In this document: positions 38,742-45,949 of the stretch, in pieces
Layout of the letters: each line of letters starts with the position of its first letter
Position numbering within the stretch: the first letter of the stretch is position 1
NCBI RefSeq assembly: GCF_902859645.1
Contig: NZ_CADIJR010000002.1
Coordinates: 1 to 64,000, forward strand
From: Achromobacter insuavis
GTDB lineage: Bacteria > Pseudomonadota > Gammaproteobacteria > Burkholderiales > Burkholderiaceae_B
Reading direction: 5' to 3'
DNA length: 64,000 nt
Notes under the pieces: model-generated
Seen by the model: only the letters and a program-made list of their open reading frames with translations
The model's database searches: none
What the model was told of the DNA's origin: nothing
Translations under genes and position numbers: made by a program

Positions 38742-39059
38742 ATGAACTTCTCCCTTGCAGTGCAAATTTCATTTTTTAGGAGAGCAGTATTTCAAACCAA
38801 TGATGATGGTTTGTTCCTGTACGAGTCCATGGCGAACGAGCTGGCGTTGACGCCTGGCGCATTCAACTTCCCCTATGGCCCATACAAGGATATGCCCCCC
38901 CCCCGGCCCGGTCGGGAAATGGCCGCAGCGCTTAGGCAATGCCTGGGCCCTGGTCGACGACTACCGCACCACGCCGCTTTGGTGGTGGAAACGGGCATGC
39001 CGTATTCGGTTGGCAGCGAGCATCCAGGGGCGGATGGTCCGGTCAGCTACCCGGGGTAG
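38742..39059 (+). CDS. Small unrecognised ORF with an internal C10 tract
   Basis: A 105-codon frame (MNFSLAVQISFFRRAVF...) running toward the integrase pseudogene. At 38895-38904 it contains ten consecutive C. Before the tract, this frame looks protein-like (ESMANELALTPGAFNFPYGP). After it, a different frame does (GKWPQRLGNAWALVDDYRTT). Loss of one C would join them. It is either a decayed gene or a phase-variable one; no family was recognised. Confidence 0.35.
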   Translation: MNFSLAVQISFFRRAVFQTNDDGLFLYESMANELALTPGAFNFPYGPYKDMPPPRPGREMAAALRQCLGPGRRLPHHAALVVETGMPYSVGSEHPGADGPVSYPG

Positions 39060-40058
39060 GGGCCGCTTCTTCCCGTGCGCGGCGCAGTTGGTCTTGCTGC
39101 CGCCTGCCCAGCGGGCTGCGCGCCAGCTTTTGGGCCAGCTCGCGGCCATGTGGATGGAAGTAGCGCAGGAGCATGCGGGTATCGACATTGCCGTTTACCT
39201 TGGCCTGCTCATGAATTTCAAACACCGTGGCAATCTGTGACGTGCCCTCGTGGCGTAGATCATGGAAGCGCAGATCACGGAAGTACGCGGCACTGGGGCG
39301 GCGACCGTAGTGCCAGCACATACCTTCGTAGCGCTGGCGAGCACGACGACGAGCGCGAATGAAGGCCCGCGTAACAGAGCCTGGCTGCATCGTGAATATC
39401 CGGCCACGCATAGGCTTTCCCGTGACCCAACGGCGTAGCGCTTCACGGGCAAGCGGCGTCAACGGGACATCCCGCGCGCGGCCGTTCTTGGTATGTGGCA
39501 AATGCACCACGCCATGCATTAGGTCCAGGTTCTCCCGCTGAATGCCTACGACCTCGGATCGGCGCCTGCCGGTTTCCTTGGCAACGGTGAGGACGGTGGG
39601 AAGCTCGGCCGACCTGGTCGCCCGGATGATCCATTCAAGCTCACCCCGTGGGCATTCGTCGCCGGATATGCCCCGCAGGGTAATCGGTCGAACAATCTGC
39701 GGTCGCGTGCGTCATCGACCGCCGGCCGGCGGACGAGCTGGACCGGGTTGGCCAACTGCTCAAACCCCAACCTTTCCGAATGACCGTGAAAACATGGGAG
39801 AGGAACGCAATACGGCGTGCAACCGTGGCCGGCGCTCGGTCTTTGAGCCATTCGTCACGCAGCTCCTTCAGGTCCGAGCTGCGTATCCAGTCGACGGGGC
39901 GAATGGCCAGCCTGGTCGCACGCTAGATGCGCGCAATCGACTGTTCGCCCGCCCGCCCCTTTTTTGTCGCAGACACCTCGACCAGGTAGCGGTCCAGTGC
40001 CTCGGCAAGGATCGGTGCAGGTTTACGGCGGAGCTGGCGGCGGGTCCCGCGTTTCATG
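39043..40058 (-). pseudogene. Phage-type tyrosine recombinase (integrase), broken
   Basis: Starting at the ATG at 40058, the frame reads an N-terminal SAM-like domain (ILAEALDRYLVEVSATKKG), hits an in-frame TAG at about 39922-39926, resumes (DWIRSSDLKELRDEWLKDR), shifts near 39768, reads ANPVQLVRRPAVDDARDRRL, and shifts again near 39690. The catalytic domain follows (ETGRRRSEVVG with the first Arg, FHDLRHEGTS with His-x-x-Arg, GNVDTRMLLRYFHP with the Tyr region) to the stop at 39043. The gene lies just left of the right-hand att repeat, as expected for the integrase of the older element. Confidence 0.8.
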
Positions 40059-41743: not shown

Positions 41744-42121
41744 ATGGCCAGCAAGTCGAGTGGGAACGCAAACGGGAAGCCGATAGTCAAAATTGGGTTC
41801 TATCATGCGGTCAGAGACGTCCTTATAGCCGCTATGGCCCGAGGTCAGCTCCTGCTAATGTGTGCATTCCTTGTACTGTTCGTCGTTGTCATCCGCCTTC
41901 CGCCGGATCAGTTGTCCGCCTTCGTATTCCGCATCATGGACGGATTGGCCAACGGCTCGTATCTGGGGTGGGGCCTGTTCGGCCTGACTGCTATAGGCTG
42001 GGGCATCAATGCGCGATTCTTGCGCCGAATCAATGCAACCGAAATGCAGCGTGTGGCCGATGCAAAGACCGCCGCACAGCAAGCAAAACTGGGCCAGCAT
42101 GTCCGATCAAGTGAGGTTTGA
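41744..42121 (+). CDS. Prophage cargo membrane protein A (unknown)
   Basis: A 125-residue protein, not recognised. Two transmembrane segments lie at about 36-53 (LLLMCAFLVLFVVVIRL) and 72-90 (SYLGWGLFGLTAIGWGI). The tail is basic and helical (RFLRRINATEMQRVADAK). Its stop is immediately followed by the ATG of the next gene (TGAATG), so the two are a translational unit. It has its own promoter region and terminator, in the opposite direction to the phage late genes, as is typical of lysogeny-expressed cargo. Confidence 0.65.
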   Translation: MASKSSGNANGKPIVKIGFYHAVRDVLIAAMARGQLLLMCAFLVLFVVVIRLPPDQLSAFVFRIMDGLANGSYLGWGLFGLTAIGWGINARFLRRINATEMQRVADAKTAAQQAKLGQHVRSSEV

Positions 42122-42670
42122 ATGGAATATATCGTAATTGCTATGGGAGTCCTCGCCGTGTATCACTATGTACTGCAGTCAGCGATTATCCCATCGCTGC
42201 GCAGTCATCTGCGATATCAGGCATTCGCTCTTCGAGACGAGCTACGCGAACTAAAAGTGCGATACGGCACTGAATTACCAGATCAAGTGTTCCATAGCCT
42301 ACAAGATTCGGTTAATTTTATTATTGCCGATATGTGGCGCATCACGGTATTTAATTTGATCGCAGCAAGACGAGCACTCGATTCTCACCCCGAGGTGGAA
42401 AGGCGCGTGCAGGACAAATTAGACTCTCTTGATAGCTGCAAATTGGATGCTGTTATCCAATTGCGCAAACGAATGACCAGACTGTCTATCAAGGCAGCAG
42501 CAATTGACGCGGCTGGTTGGTGGATCTACATTCTGCCCGTTATCTGGGCAGTGGCCTGCGTTTCTCGTTTTAAGAAGCTGATGCGACTAGTCCTGGCCGC
42601 TCCAAAAGGGCTTCGCGACGAAGTCATCTTTCCACATGCTTTAACGGAAGCGACCGCTACCGCGTCATAA
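42122..42670 (+). CDS. Prophage cargo membrane protein B (unknown)
   Basis: A 182-residue protein, not recognised. A membrane helix at about 2-20 (YIVIAMGVLAVYHYVL) and another at 138-156 (GWWIYILPVIWAVACV) frame a soluble helical middle region with many Arg and Asp residues. It is coupled to protein A with zero spacing. Codon use is less GC-biased than in the core genes. A membrane-acting superinfection-exclusion or abortive-infection module is possible, from position and topology only. Confidence 0.65.
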   Translation: MEYIVIAMGVLAVYHYVLQSAIIPSLRSHLRYQAFALRDELRELKVRYGTELPDQVFHSLQDSVNFIIADMWRITVFNLIAARRALDSHPEVERRVQDKLDSLDSCKLDAVIQLRKRMTRLSIKAAAIDAAGWWIYILPVIWAVACVSRFKKLMRLVLAAPKGLRDEVIFPHALTEATATAS

Positions 42671-42708: not shown

Positions 42709-43201
42709 ATTTGGCCAAGCCTGCACCATAGCCCCCCCTGCGACGCGGGACGCTCCCCATACAGTGCCATGTAGCTATGGGCGAAGTCGTCCCAGCTACC
42801 GCTGGTCACCGCGGGCACCGCTCAGGCAGACTGGTACAAAGTTGGCGACCAATACTGTAAATGGGCCGGCAGAAGCGAAGCAGCGAACTGCAATGGACGG
42901 CTGTAATTAATGCGCAATAGCTTTATCACGCTCGCGACGCCCATGCCGGCCGCCGCAGAGCATTCGCCCCAGCCCCCTCACGGGTTGGGGCGTTTTCGTT
43001 TTAGTGAGGTGGCAAGCTGCAGGGCGATGAGGCGGGCAGTGGATTAGGGGCTGCGACATTCCTCCCCCAACGTTCCTCCGCCGTGTACCTGGTGCTGCCG
43101 GTCGCCACTGGCCCGTTAGCGCTGCGTGCTGGGTGATAGAGGTTGACCTTCCGCGGCTGGATCACGACAATCGGAGACAGCCACGGACGGCGAGGAACAC
43201 C
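42709..43201. other. Gap between the two cargo modules
   Basis: About 490 bp. A short frame ending at 42906 (VTAGTAQADWYKVGDQYCKW) looks like the end of a small secreted protein but has no start codon, so it may be a remnant. A further terminator lies at 42965-43002. Confidence 0.4.
42965..43002 (+). terminator. Terminator before the PIN module
   Basis: CGCCCCA pairs with TGGGGCG (with inner CC/GG pairing) and is followed by TTTTCGTTTT. No intact plus-strand gene lies directly upstream, so it insulates the PIN pair or ends the remnant above. Confidence 0.7.
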
Positions 43202-44008
43202 ATGAAGTCGAGCAAATTCAAGATTACGATGAAAGGGGAAGAAGCTGGTGACAGCCTTCGCCTCAGTGATCTTATCGACCAATTGAATGCCCTCAAGCAG
43301 ACGCTCAACCAAATCGACATGTCTGTCTCCGGCAGCAGGGCCCCTTCCCTGTACTACCGTGTAACGAAAATCACGATGAATAGCCCGGCAACTTTTGAGC
43401 TAGAGGCGGTTTCCAAGACTAGCGGCCCCTCTTACGCTCGCCGGGTTGTCTCGAGGTTAGACAGGGATATCCGAAAGGTGATCTCTGGAAAGCGCCCGAC
43501 CGGCGCAAGCCTAGATTTGATGGAGTCTTATGGCTCCTTATCAGGTCCGCTCCGCAAACACGTCGCTGAGGTCATTCTCCAGTTCGACAGTGGCCAACCA
43601 ATAGATTTGCCTCGAAATCTGAACGTCAGAGTTGATGAAATACTGGGGCCTGATCAAGTCGAAGAGGGGTCTGTTGTCGGCAGTTTGGACGTGATCGATG
43701 TACACAATCAACGTAACTACTTCAAGGTATACCCGATAGTCGGGCCGCGCAGTGTCAAGTGTTTTTTCCCTAGTGGAATGTTGGCAGAGGCTCTCGCGGG
43801 AATTAACCGCTCCGTCCGCATTTCCGGGCAACTACACTTCAAAAAAGCCGAAAAGCACCCGCACCTGATCAAAGTCCGCAGCATCGAGGTGCTCCCCGAG
43901 AGATCTGAGGTTCCCTCTCTGTCCAGCCTGCGCGGGCTCGCGCCCGGCGCTTGCGAAGGTATGAAGTCAGAGGACTACGTAAACAAGGTCAGAAATGGCG
44001 ACTGGTAA
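43202..44008 (+). CDS. Partner of the PIN protein, candidate antitoxin (268 residues)
   Basis: Not a recognised family. It starts at the ATG at 43202 with AGGA upstream; an ATG at 43133 lacks such a site. The N-terminal part (MKSSKFKITMKGEEAGDSLRLSDLIDQ cut after SLRL) combines a beta strand with a helix. The middle (LEVA-like FELEAVSK, ARRVVSRLDRDI) is mixed alpha/beta. A small beta-barrel-like segment VRISGQLHFKKAEKHPHLIK lies near 225. The C-terminal SLRGLAPGA...EDYVNKVRNGDW resembles the toxin-embracing tails of VapB-type antitoxins. It overlaps the PIN gene by 14 bp. At 268 residues it is far larger than usual antitoxins (70-100). Confidence 0.7.
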   Translation: MKSSKFKITMKGEEAGDSLRLSDLIDQLNALKQTLNQIDMSVSGSRAPSLYYRVTKITMNSPATFELEAVSKTSGPSYARRVVSRLDRDIRKVISGKRPTGASLDLMESYGSLSGPLRKHVAEVILQFDSGQPIDLPRNLNVRVDEILGPDQVEEGSVVGSLDVIDVHNQRNYFKVYPIVGPRSVKCFFPSGMLAEALAGINRSVRISGQLHFKKAEKHPHLIKVRSIEVLPERSEVPSLSSLRGLAPGACEGMKSEDYVNKVRNGDW

Positions 44009-44546
44009 ACCGCGCTTCTATTGGGACACGGCACCGCTGATCGCATGGATCACCGGCGAGAAGCGGGAAGACCCCGCAGAAATGGCAGGGTTGGCTGAAG
44101 TCCTCGATATGGTTGATCGAGGACGAGCCATAGTTATGATCTCCGTACTGTGGCGAGCTGAAATTCTCGACCTCAGACTAACGGCTGCTCAGAAAAAGCA
44201 GTTGGAGCTGGCCTTCGAAGGACGATCAATAGTCGAATTGGAGGCGGGCAGCAAAGTTATGGCGCTAGCTGGCGAAATTCGCAATTTCCACAAAGCAGCA
44301 GCGAAGAAGGGCGTCCTACAAAATGTCCGGGTTCCAGACGCCATCCACCTGGCCACGGCTGTCCATTATGAGGCTACCGAATTCCATACATTCGATGGCG
44401 CTCGGCAAGGCGGTAACTCGGGCGGTCTCATCACTCTGGACGGCAACGTTGCGGGCCATCGTCTGAAGATTTGCGCTCCCAAGGCGGAACAGCTTCAGTT
44501 TCAATTTGCCGCCGCCGGGAACGAAGCCTCAGATACCGAGGACTGA
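43995..44546 (+). CDS. PIN-domain ribonuclease (VapC-like)
   Basis: A 183-residue PIN nuclease. The acidic catalytic set looks complete: Asp11 in FYWDTAPLIAW, Glu56 in WRAEILD, Asp115 in VPDAIHLATA and Asp134 in FHTFDGAR. PIN toxins usually cut tRNA or rRNA and are held inactive by a partner. This one is longer than typical VapC (~130) by a C-terminal tail of ~35 residues. The ATG lies inside the upstream gene, so the partner is translated first, as in many toxin-antitoxin operons. It is followed by its own terminator. Confidence 0.85.
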   Translation: MATGKPRFYWDTAPLIAWITGEKREDPAEMAGLAEVLDMVDRGRAIVMISVLWRAEILDLRLTAAQKKQLELAFEGRSIVELEAGSKVMALAGEIRNFHKAAAKKGVLQNVRVPDAIHLATAVHYEATEFHTFDGARQGGNSGGLITLDGNVAGHRLKICAPKAEQLQFQFAAAGNEASDTED

Positions 44547-44566
44547 GTAACCATCCGCCCCACCCC

Positions 44567-44588
44567 AGCCACATCCGGGTGGCTTTTT
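44567..44588 (+). terminator. Terminator of the PIN module
   Basis: AGCCAC pairs with GTGGCT over a short loop and is followed by five T. It is very similar to the terminator at 42686, which suggests both cargo modules derive from similar cassettes. Confidence 0.8.
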
Positions 44589-44629
44589 GGTTGGCCGATG
44601 TTCTCGCGTGAAAAACACTACGGGCAACC

Positions 44630-45136
44630 CTAGCGCTGCCTCGCCTGGCACGCTTCAAGCTGCGCGGTCACTCGCTGGATTCCAGCCCGGAGGGCGAAAT
44701 AATCCGATCTAGCAGCTGGATCAAGTTCGGCGCGGGCTCCATGATCCACGCGGGTGGCGACGCCGGTTTCGGACACTCCACCGCCGGCAGCGGGGCAGGC
44801 GGCACGGACGTGCAGCCGCTGGCGCCCAGCATCAACATCAGCCCGCAAACCCTCGTCTTGTATCTGCGCATTGCGCAACCCTCCATAGGCGGCCCACTCG
44901 GCACGCGCATTCCGTTCGTTGATATCGGCGACGGCAGCATGCCGCTGTGCCAGGATCTCGCGGGCCTGCCGCTGGCCGTCAGCCACTTCCTCTGCTCGGG
45001 CCGCGCGCTGGACCGCCAACTGCTCGCCATAGCGCCAGCCCTGCGCCGTCCATGCAGCTACCCCAAACGCAAGCCCGCCGGCCAGCGCCGCGGCAGCGTA
45101 CCCCCGCCACCCGATCAGCGCAGACCCGAAAGACAT
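44630..45136 (-). CDS. Rz-like inner-membrane spanin
   Basis: A 168-residue i-spanin. The N-terminal membrane anchor (about 12-30, YAAAALAGGLAFGVAAW) is followed by a long periplasmic helical segment (RAARAEEVADGQRQAREIL). Spanins fuse inner and outer membranes at the last step of host lysis. It overlaps the endolysin gene by 22 bp at its start and contains Rz1 in another frame. Confidence 0.82.
   Translation of the reverse strand: MSFGSALIGWRGYAAAALAGGLAFGVAAWTAQGWRYGEQLAVQRAARAEEVADGQRQAREILAQRHAAVADINERNARAEWAAYGGLRNAQIQDEGLRADVDAGRQRLHVRAACPAAGGGVSETGVATRVDHGARAELDPAARSDYFALRAGIQRVTAQLEACQARQR
44668..44871 (-). CDS. Rz1-like outer-membrane lipoprotein spanin, nested in Rz
   Basis: A 67-residue frame inside Rz, in a different phase, from the ATG at 44871 with GGAGGG 7 bp upstream. 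It has a short signal peptide with lipobox LGASGC and a proline-rich mature part (CTSVPPAPLPAVECPKP), the hallmarks of o-spanins. Confidence 0.85.
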   Translation of the reverse strand: MRRYKTRVCGLMLMLGASGCTSVPPAPLPAVECPKPASPPAWIMEPAPNLIQLLDRIISPSGLESSE

Positions 45137-45669
45137 AGCCGTTCCTCATCCAGGCGCCGGTTGTACAGGCCCGGCACGAAGACCTTGGCGCCCTTCGCAT
45201 CGGTGACATAGGACCAGACCGGCGATCCATTCGGCGCATGCGCTAGGGCGTTGCAGCCCTCACGCAGCCGGCCGGCGTTGATCAGGCCCACCGCCCGACT
45301 CGCGCAGGTAGCTGGCGTGCCGAAGTTGTGAGCGTGGCTGCTCAAGGCGTCAAAGACCGGCTGGCTGACCACCACGTCGATGCAGTCGGCAAGCTGCAGC
45401 TGCCCCTTACTCACCACCAAGCGCTCAACCTGCTCGCAGCGTTCGGGCGACCAGTAGTCGCCCACCACCAGCGGTTCGGGGCTGGTGTGCTTGGTGATGC
45501 CCTTACAAACGGTGGGCAACCCGCCGGCCAGCTTGTCGGCATAGACGACGTTTTGCCCCTCGCCTTCCCACTTGCCGAGGAAAGATTGCAGCGTGGGCGA
45601 GAACAGCGCCAGGTAGCCAGAAGCGACAAGGGCGGCAGCGCCGCCCGTGATCTTGGTTCCGAGTTTCAT
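45115..45669 (-). CDS. SAR-type endolysin (GH24 lysozyme)
   Basis: A 184-residue peptidoglycan hydrolase. The N-terminal weakly hydrophobic Gly/Ala-rich helix (about 7-24) is a signal-anchor-release segment as in R21 endolysin. The catalytic region is KWEGEGQNVVYADKLAGG with Glu35 and Asp45, followed by LPTVCKGIT. The start is the ATG at 45669; its A is shared with the holin stop (TGATG). Confidence 0.88.
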   Translation of the reverse strand: MKLGTKITGGAAALVASGYLALFSPTLQSFLGKWEGEGQNVVYADKLAGGLPTVCKGITKHTSPEPLVVGDYWSPERCEQVERLVVSKGQLQLADCIDVVVSQPVFDALSSHAHNFGTPATCASRAVGLINAGRLREGCNALAHAPNGSPVWSYVTDAKGAKVFVPGLYNRRLDEERLCLSGLR

Positions 45670-45854
45670 CACACCCCCTTGCCCATCCACCAATCTCGCA
45701 CCAAACGCCAGTATTTCGGCACCAGCAGCCCGATCTGCATGGCGAGATACACCAGCGTGGCCATCGCCACCCATTCGTTGAGCGTCAGGCCATAAAACAC
45801 CGCCCCTCCTGCGCCAATCCCCATCTTGACCATCGCTGCCTGGTCTTCGTGCAT
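45669..45854 (-). CDS. Small holin/pinholin-like protein
   Basis: A 61-residue protein starting MHEDQAAMVKMGIGAGGAVF at the ATG at 45854 with AGGAGC upstream. One clear membrane helix (LNEWVAMATLVYLAMQIGLL) follows a weaker Gly/Ala-rich hydrophobic segment. The tail is basic (PKYWRLVRDWW). A partner of a SAR endolysin is usually a pinholin, which needs only small membrane lesions. Confidence 0.75.
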   Translation of the reverse strand: MHEDQAAMVKMGIGAGGAVFYGLTLNEWVAMATLVYLAMQIGLLVPKYWRLVRDWWMGKGV

Positions 45855-45904
45855 CGTGTTGCTCCTATTGCCGGTCTGCATTGCTGCCTCCCGTTGTGTG
45901 GACG

Positions 45905-45927
45905 AAAAAAAACCCGCCGAAGCGGGC
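45905..45927 (-). terminator. Strong terminator between tail-fibre genes and the lysis cassette
   Basis: On the minus strand GCCCGC-TTCG-GCGGG is followed by eight T. It separates the structural operon from holin/endolysin/spanin, so lysis genes need either antitermination or their own promoter. Confidence 0.85.
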
Positions 45928-45949
45928 ATCTATTTGCAAATCAAACCGA

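Follow-up and report, generated by a model that had tools for sequence, protein, structure and literature searches.

The window considered here, 64,000 nucleotides of an Achromobacter insuavis contig (NZ_CADIJR010000002.1, positions 1 to 64,000), carries within a prophage two overlapping genes, the second encoding a PIN-domain nuclease and the first a protein for which no family could be named (hereafter the partner), and the question raised by the locus is what kind of system the two form. We consider it probable that the pair is a type-II-like PIN toxin–antitoxin (TA) cassette with a large antitoxin of a new, as yet unnamed family, on account of the pairing itself, the antitoxin-first overlap, an invariant acidic tetrad, co-varying distances between the two proteins, purifying selection, carriage on mobile DNA and a match of the PIN protein to a VapC of known structure. 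The overall reading of an initial annotation of this DNA, which had seen in the pair a candidate new TA or defence system, is thereby partly supported; carriage by elements of the IS1595 insertion sequence (IS) family is an addition to it.

The two plus-strand genes, with a 14-bp overlap and the 268-residue protein first, stand as they were initially described (Table 1). An alternative form of the partner, of 291 residues, would begin at a GTG codon at 43133, and the ATG at 43202 is preferred because that GTG precedes the promoter-like site. The PIN protein matches the Pfam PIN family above its cut-off (24.8 bits compared with 23.6; E 3.6e-5), and a search of its profile against the PDB gave a sole match at E ≤ 0.01, which is a VapC (E 0.0046). 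The residues that had been singled out as a complete catalytic site, Asp11, Glu56, Asp115 and Asp134, are invariant in 20/20 intact pairs, as are Trp10, Ser50 and His118. This set of 20, the window included, was drawn from 26 distinct loci, counted by hand, after leaving out those with a PIN protein that ends before the fourth Asp (L041), is cut by a contig end (L043) or is frameshifted (L033 and L067), one with a split partner (L019) and one with no PIN gene (L068); L011, L001, L013-L015, L017 and L045 were grouped with like relatives, and the coordinates of L063-L066 are those of open frames, with approximate N-termini. The partner, described at the outset as belonging to no recognizable family, gave no match at E ≤ 1 in Pfam, NCBIfam or PADLOC, a best PHROG match of only E 0.23 and a best PDB sequence match of E 0.36; the PADLOC 2.0.0 models matched neither of the two proteins at E ≤ 1.

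The co-occurrence survey called for by the initial annotation showed that the pair recurs elsewhere. When viral contigs were scanned with the PIN alignment alone, 15 contigs were returned, 11 of them new and four already known from partner searches (L044 and L045 being near-copies), and the partner profile identified a partner directly upstream in 15/15; the scan is not exhaustive, since L012-L015 were not returned. The partner-first search of viral contigs found a PIN gene downstream in 8/8. The partner searches of genomes, which covered the phylum of the window's genome, matched 4 of 150 (E limit 1e-3), 6 of 369 (0.01), 4 of 398 (0.01), 3 of 399 (1e-3) and 7 of 260 genomes (1e-5), counts that include the centre genome and weak hits. 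A partner match reached E ≤ 1e-5 in 14 genomes. Immediately downstream of it lies an open PIN gene in 11 of these and a frameshifted one in two (G761 and G1221), 13 in all, and the remaining genome (G1249) has none. In the reverse direction, a PIN search of 143 genomes gave five matches at E ≤ 1e-6, with the partner present in the window's genome and in G195. A scan of genome contigs returned one locus only, plasmid searches with P0001, L031, L032, L020 and L047 as queries gave no match, and neither did a phage search with L047. The pair is a conserved, nearly obligate module. Neither a match of the partner to a named family in the libraries searched nor a lack of co-occurrence, both of which would have spoken against the initial reading, was observed. 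Stop–start overlaps of 4-17 bp, always with the partner gene first, were found in 13/13 pairs measured (window included), and across the 20 intact pairs the distances between partners and those between PIN proteins are correlated (r = 0.87), a value reached in 0/5000 permutations.

One comparison is with a prophage of otherwise different content (L011/L030), which has in common with the window only a 1.6-kb stretch containing the two genes, the promoter-like site and the hairpin 3′ of the PIN gene. The proteins of the two copies differ at 5 of 268 positions in the partner and at 1 of 183 in the PIN protein, and the ratio of nonsynonymous to synonymous divergence (dN/dS) is 0.0082/0.194 (about 0.04) for the partner and 0.0024/0.226 (about 0.01) for the PIN gene, so that both genes are under strong purifying selection. 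Chance is excluded, because the pair recurs and dN/dS is low in both genes. The limits of the shared stretch point to a cassette that moves as a unit; L001, whose contig comes from a phage of the kind seen in the window, shares a longer stretch, 42965-45928, at 98% identity.

The partner could be divided by alignment into three parts (Table 1), and its length among intact pairs ranges from 225 to 328 residues. Two relatives match nearly the whole of the Pfam OB-fold profile PF01336, at E values of 0.0046 and 0.095 that are below the cut-off, and a third matches part of it; as these matches are sub-cut-off and the segment has no PDB sequence match (none at E ≤ 5), we infer, rather than observe, that the central part is OB-like. 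This segment behaves as a separable unit in several relatives. It stands alone at L026:1885-2292 in G195, a genome in which three tandem copies of the partner are followed by a single PIN gene (L020/L026), and an in-frame stop in L019 falls at the boundary between the N-terminal part and the OB-like core. In L040 (2325-3002) the core and the PIN protein are kept behind a hydrophobic N-terminus, with two possible membrane segments by eye and a weak match to a Pfam membrane transporter (E 0.017, below the cut-off), where a later start would leave merely a short N-terminus; in L039 (2028-3014) the partner frame opens with the N-terminus of an IS1595-type transposase, either a natural fusion or the product of a deletion. 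Searches of ten members against Pfam and NCBIfam at E ≤ 1 found no RHH, AbrB, Phd or HTH antitoxin domain in any of them, the lone hit being a chance-level match of one member to the HspR repressor NF047375 (E 0.058). As a separate observation, a 153-residue protein in G382 (L021:1147-1608) has a partner-like tail, with no match to the OB-like core and no PIN match nearby.

Two kinds of carrier emerged from the neighbourhoods of the pairs. An IS1595-family transposase, or its remains, lies upstream of the partner and in the same orientation in at least 10 of the 26 distinct loci (L018, L019, L031, L039, where it is fused, L042, L044, L047, L063, L068 and L062), a lower bound because the upstream sequence is short at some loci (L032, L041). 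Both IS1595 Pfam domains scored above their cut-offs in 4/4 loci tested (L018, L042, L047 and L062), and also beside the pair of G1207. In L018, perfect inverted repeats of 28 bp enclose the transposase, the partner, the PIN gene and a small open reading frame (ORF), and the element is flanked by an 8-bp target duplication, TTTATTGG; in L063 terminal inverted repeats likewise enclose the pair, the 8-bp target duplication there being AAATATTT, and imperfect terminal repeats were found in L042 and L070. Plasmid pMOC1 is annotated, in order, as IS1595 family transposase, hypothetical protein, type II TA VapC family toxin and hypothetical protein. As background, IS1595 elements occur in 14 of 58 genomes (43 matches), and one of the 30 loci examined carries the pair, a locus already found. 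Neither a transposase match nor a terminal inverted repeat was found around the pair in the window. On the tree of the 20 pairs IS association is scattered, and the well-supported branches require at least four changes; when the labels were shuffled 500 times, 84 of the shuffles could be explained by no more changes.

The small ORF 3′ of the PIN gene, of a DRFKEAARELxxDE type, was seen at L018:2415-2630, L044:3437-3607 and L047:3374-3628, and seems to be part of the IS, since it is present in IS1595 loci without the pair (L092, L099). The IS1595 element of L018 ends in or beside a short gene (L018:2682-3017) with weak PHROG matches to Cor-like exclusion proteins (E 0.038); a reading of this gene as an Rz1-like spanin was not borne out, the Rz-like PHROG matches having E values of 0.044 and more and Pfam giving none at E ≤ 0.01.

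The second kind of carrier is the temperate phage. In four viral contigs representing three lineages of the pair (L011, L012, L014 and L017, the loci covered by this comparison), the pair lies behind a phage repressor gene in the same direction, at a distance of about 100 to 460 bases, in agreement with the earlier suggestion that it occupies a position typical of genes expressed during lysogeny. All four repressors match PHROG 4 and three of the four also match the CI-like PHROG 6201. The near-identical pairs of L012 and L014 follow repressors that are merely 25% identical, and the repressors of L011 and L017 share no similarity. No PHROG family was matched by the one or two neighbours scanned at each of L037, L038 and L040.

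In the TA reading that we favour, the toxin would be the PIN protein, most likely an RNase of the VapC type, and the first of the overlapping genes would encode a large antitoxin. Both genes would be transcribed during lysogeny from their own promoter and would be translationally coupled, and the OB-like core, aided by the C-terminal tail where this is present, would bind the nascent PIN protein and keep its acidic site away from RNA. Loss of or change in the partner would then free the PIN protein, RNA would be cut and growth would stop, and the variable N-terminal part may set the timing of this release. Such a module could persist by making the loss of its carrier costly, whether a temperate phage or an IS1595-family transposon, with the abortion of other infections as a possible further benefit. 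If this is right, the protein-family libraries searched and phage annotation lack a recognizable family of PIN antitoxins, one toxin pair would tie an IS family to phage cargo, and an antitoxin whose N-terminal parts are exchanged around an OB-like core would become available for testing.

VapB antitoxins are small DNA-binding proteins. The present pair resembles VapBC systems in its PIN protein with four conserved acidic residues, in the position of the partner gene, in the short overlap and in its mobile carriage, and the PIN protein of one relative, that of pMOC1, is annotated as a ‘type II toxin-antitoxin system VapC family toxin’; it differs in a partner that is much longer, that has an OB-like core and that matches none of the usual antitoxin domains. 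Among two-gene PIN systems predicted, like this one, from gene neighbourhood, the portion of the survey by Makarova, Wolf and Koonin (2009; PMC2701414) available to us names as partners COG2442, a domain put at about 70-80 residues, COG2880, COG1753, truncated MerR, RHH, AbrB, PHD, COG2886 and COG2856-Xre, and no large OB-type partner is among those described in that portion. Carriage of such genes on transposons has a parallel in the Tn3 family, members of which, according to the accessible part of PMC7157771, carry PIN-type toxins with antitoxins, acquired several times; the antitoxins there are different ones, whereas the elements here are of the IS1595 family and the partner is the unnamed OB-type protein. 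IS1595-family elements with passenger genes were reportedly described by Siguier et al. in 2009. That work is cited in the accessible part of PMC5704250. The loci L018 and L063 conform to such an arrangement in having an IS1595 transposase, terminal inverted repeats and an 8-bp target duplication, all three, from which the window copy differs in having neither transposase nor terminal repeat found. The literature searched on IS1595 with PIN, VapC or TA systems, covered as titles and openings of abstracts, gave no description of the pair.

Several observations weigh against the TA reading. The partner has no matched DNA-binding antitoxin domain and is far larger than VapB. Its C-terminal tail, in which the initial annotation had seen a VapB-like clamp for the PIN toxin, is real in the window protein but is absent from 6 of the 20 intact pairs (L032, L040, L044, L047, L063 and L065), and we have rejected it as a universal clamp. 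The pairing also has exceptions: G1249 contains a decayed partner sequence and no PIN gene; five weaker partner hits (E 1e-5 to 0.01, in G084, G159, G187, G382 and G947) are without PIN, and, none having a PIN match, we treated them as chance rather than as real partners; and three of the five genomic PIN matches, the weakest (L052-L054, E about 1e-8 to 1e-12), have no such partner, as would be expected of other PIN families. The pattern of decay is not clearly one-sided either. The PIN gene is broken and the partner open in L033/L071, L060/L067 and L041, whereas the PIN gene is open beside a damaged partner in L019 (the stop at the domain boundary) and in L017 (a frameshift close to the tail). 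Open PIN genes of the latter kind are not easily reconciled with a strict antidote, unless the pieces still work or the draft sequence is wrong. As either gene is found damaged without the other, the pattern does not single out one of them as the antidote.

The same features can be read in other ways. The partner may be a sensor-inhibitor in an anti-phage abortive infection system, its N-terminal part recognizing a phage and releasing the PIN protein, a function compatible with a TA cassette and one that we regard as possible rather than probable. It would account for the position of viral copies behind phage repressors, for N-termini that differ while the OB-like core and PIN protein stay the same (L039, L040), for the three partner copies to one PIN gene in G195 and for the nearness of the window pair to two genes of the PADLOC candidate defence system 2TM-1TM-TIR, but neither protein matches a PADLOC model, carriage on small IS1595 elements fits addiction equally well, no TIR gene was found after the 2TM and 1TM genes, and L011 and the 865 bases upstream of the partner in L001 gave no 2TM-1TM match. 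More tentative still is a modular sensor-effector in which a constant OB-like domain and a PIN RNase would be combined with interchangeable N-terminal triggers (the usual domain, a hydrophobic and possibly membrane-spanning segment, or tandem duplicated partners), spread by IS1595 elements, captured repeatedly by temperate phages and arresting the cell upon infection or induction.

The OB-like core, with its near-complete if sub-cut-off Pfam matches in two relatives, also suits an RNA-binding subunit that would aim the PIN protein at, for example, RNA transcribed from a competing phage or from its own element. Such a two-subunit ribonuclease or RNA regulator would be consistent with the strict co-inheritance of the genes and with the open PIN genes beside damaged partners in L019 and L017, but broken PIN genes beside open partners exist too, type II TA operons have this gene order and overlap, and the OB assignment is weak; we think it unlikely. 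Very unlikely, in our view, is a passive passenger of IS1595 elements that matters to neither phage nor host and is kept by transposition alone. The proportion of IS1595-associated loci (10/26) and the existence of decayed copies would be in line with this, but purifying selection is strong between two phage copies whose surroundings gave neither an IS1595 transposase nor a terminal repeat, and IS presence and absence are scattered over the tree with the forced changes noted above.

Table 1. Features of the cassette and its prophage surroundings (positions in the window).
Feature	Position	Strand	Basis or remark
Whole cassette	43013-44598	+	Sole window stretch matching L011 and L030; 92% DNA identity
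Partner gene, 268 residues, putative large antitoxin	43202-44008	+	ATG start; no family match; relatives nearly always precede a PIN gene
N-terminal part, variable (about residues 1-150)	43202-43651	+	Other sequence in L039 and L040; boundary inferred from alignment and L019 stop
OB-like core (residues 152-235)	43655-43906	+	Aligned in 20/20 intact pairs; kept in L039 and L040
C-terminal tail (residues 236-268), motif type SEDYVRELRxxW	43907-44005	+	In 14/20 intact pairs
PIN-domain nuclease gene, 183 residues, putative toxin	43995-44546	+	ATG start; Pfam PIN; Asp11, Glu56, Asp115, Asp134
Gene overlap, 14 bp	43995-44008	+	ORF coordinates
Promoter-like site TTGACC-17-GACAAT	43143-43171	+	Consensus match only; ends 30 bases 5′ of start
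Terminator-like hairpin between 1TM gene and pair	42965-42992	+	Consensus match
Terminator-like hairpin 3′ of PIN gene	44567-44584	+	Consensus match; altered form in L011
2TM (E 1.9e-40) and 1TM (E 1e-31) genes	41744-42670		Components of PADLOC candidate defence system 2TM-1TM-TIR
Integrase fragment	39046-39519		PHROG 216, profile positions 114-235 of 301; prophage side nearest pair
Rz-like spanin gene	44630-45136	-	Late phage gene
Lysozyme gene	45115-45774	-	Late phage gene

The signals around the genes are consensus matches, to be seen against two promoter-like sites where 0.8 would be expected and six terminator-like sites where 2.2 would be expected. The 66-base leader 5′ of the partner, which holds the promoter-like site, has three differences from the copy in the other phage, with identical promoter hexamers; when the conserved leader was inspected with autoregulation of the operon in mind, the only palindrome was the 6-bp CCGCGG. 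A terminator belonging to the pair, as initially proposed, has a counterpart in the terminator-like hairpin 3′ of the PIN gene, but the folding of this hairpin is no better than that of shuffled sequences (z -0.43). The late phage genes on the minus strand run toward the pair and stop at 44630, and the pair is therefore convergent with the lysis genes and does not overlap them, rather than being antisense to them as had been stated.

On the other side of the pair, the 2TM and 1TM genes are the components of the PADLOC candidate system that were matched, and the pair itself matches no PADLOC model. No TIR gene directly follows the two genes, since the interval from them to the pair holds no plus-strand ORF of at least 50 residues, the rest of the window not having been scanned for TIR; a phage search with the 1TM protein gave no match, and we found no literature on 2TM-1TM-TIR. 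A four-gene system of 2TM, 1TM, partner and PIN genes was considered and rejected, given the terminator-like hairpin that separates the two halves and the L001 and L011 stretches that carry the pair without a 2TM-1TM match.

The G+C content is 0.51-0.56 in 250-base steps from 43251 to 44500, compared with 0.65 over the whole window. Two exact matches, of 47 and 38 bases, are to a Bordetella and an Achromobacter phage. The only deposited phage record found with the pair is that of Pseudomonas phage vB_PaeS_AV001 (PQ349086.1), in which the PIN protein (L009:5285-5818) is annotated, apparently wrongly, as ‘repressor protein’.
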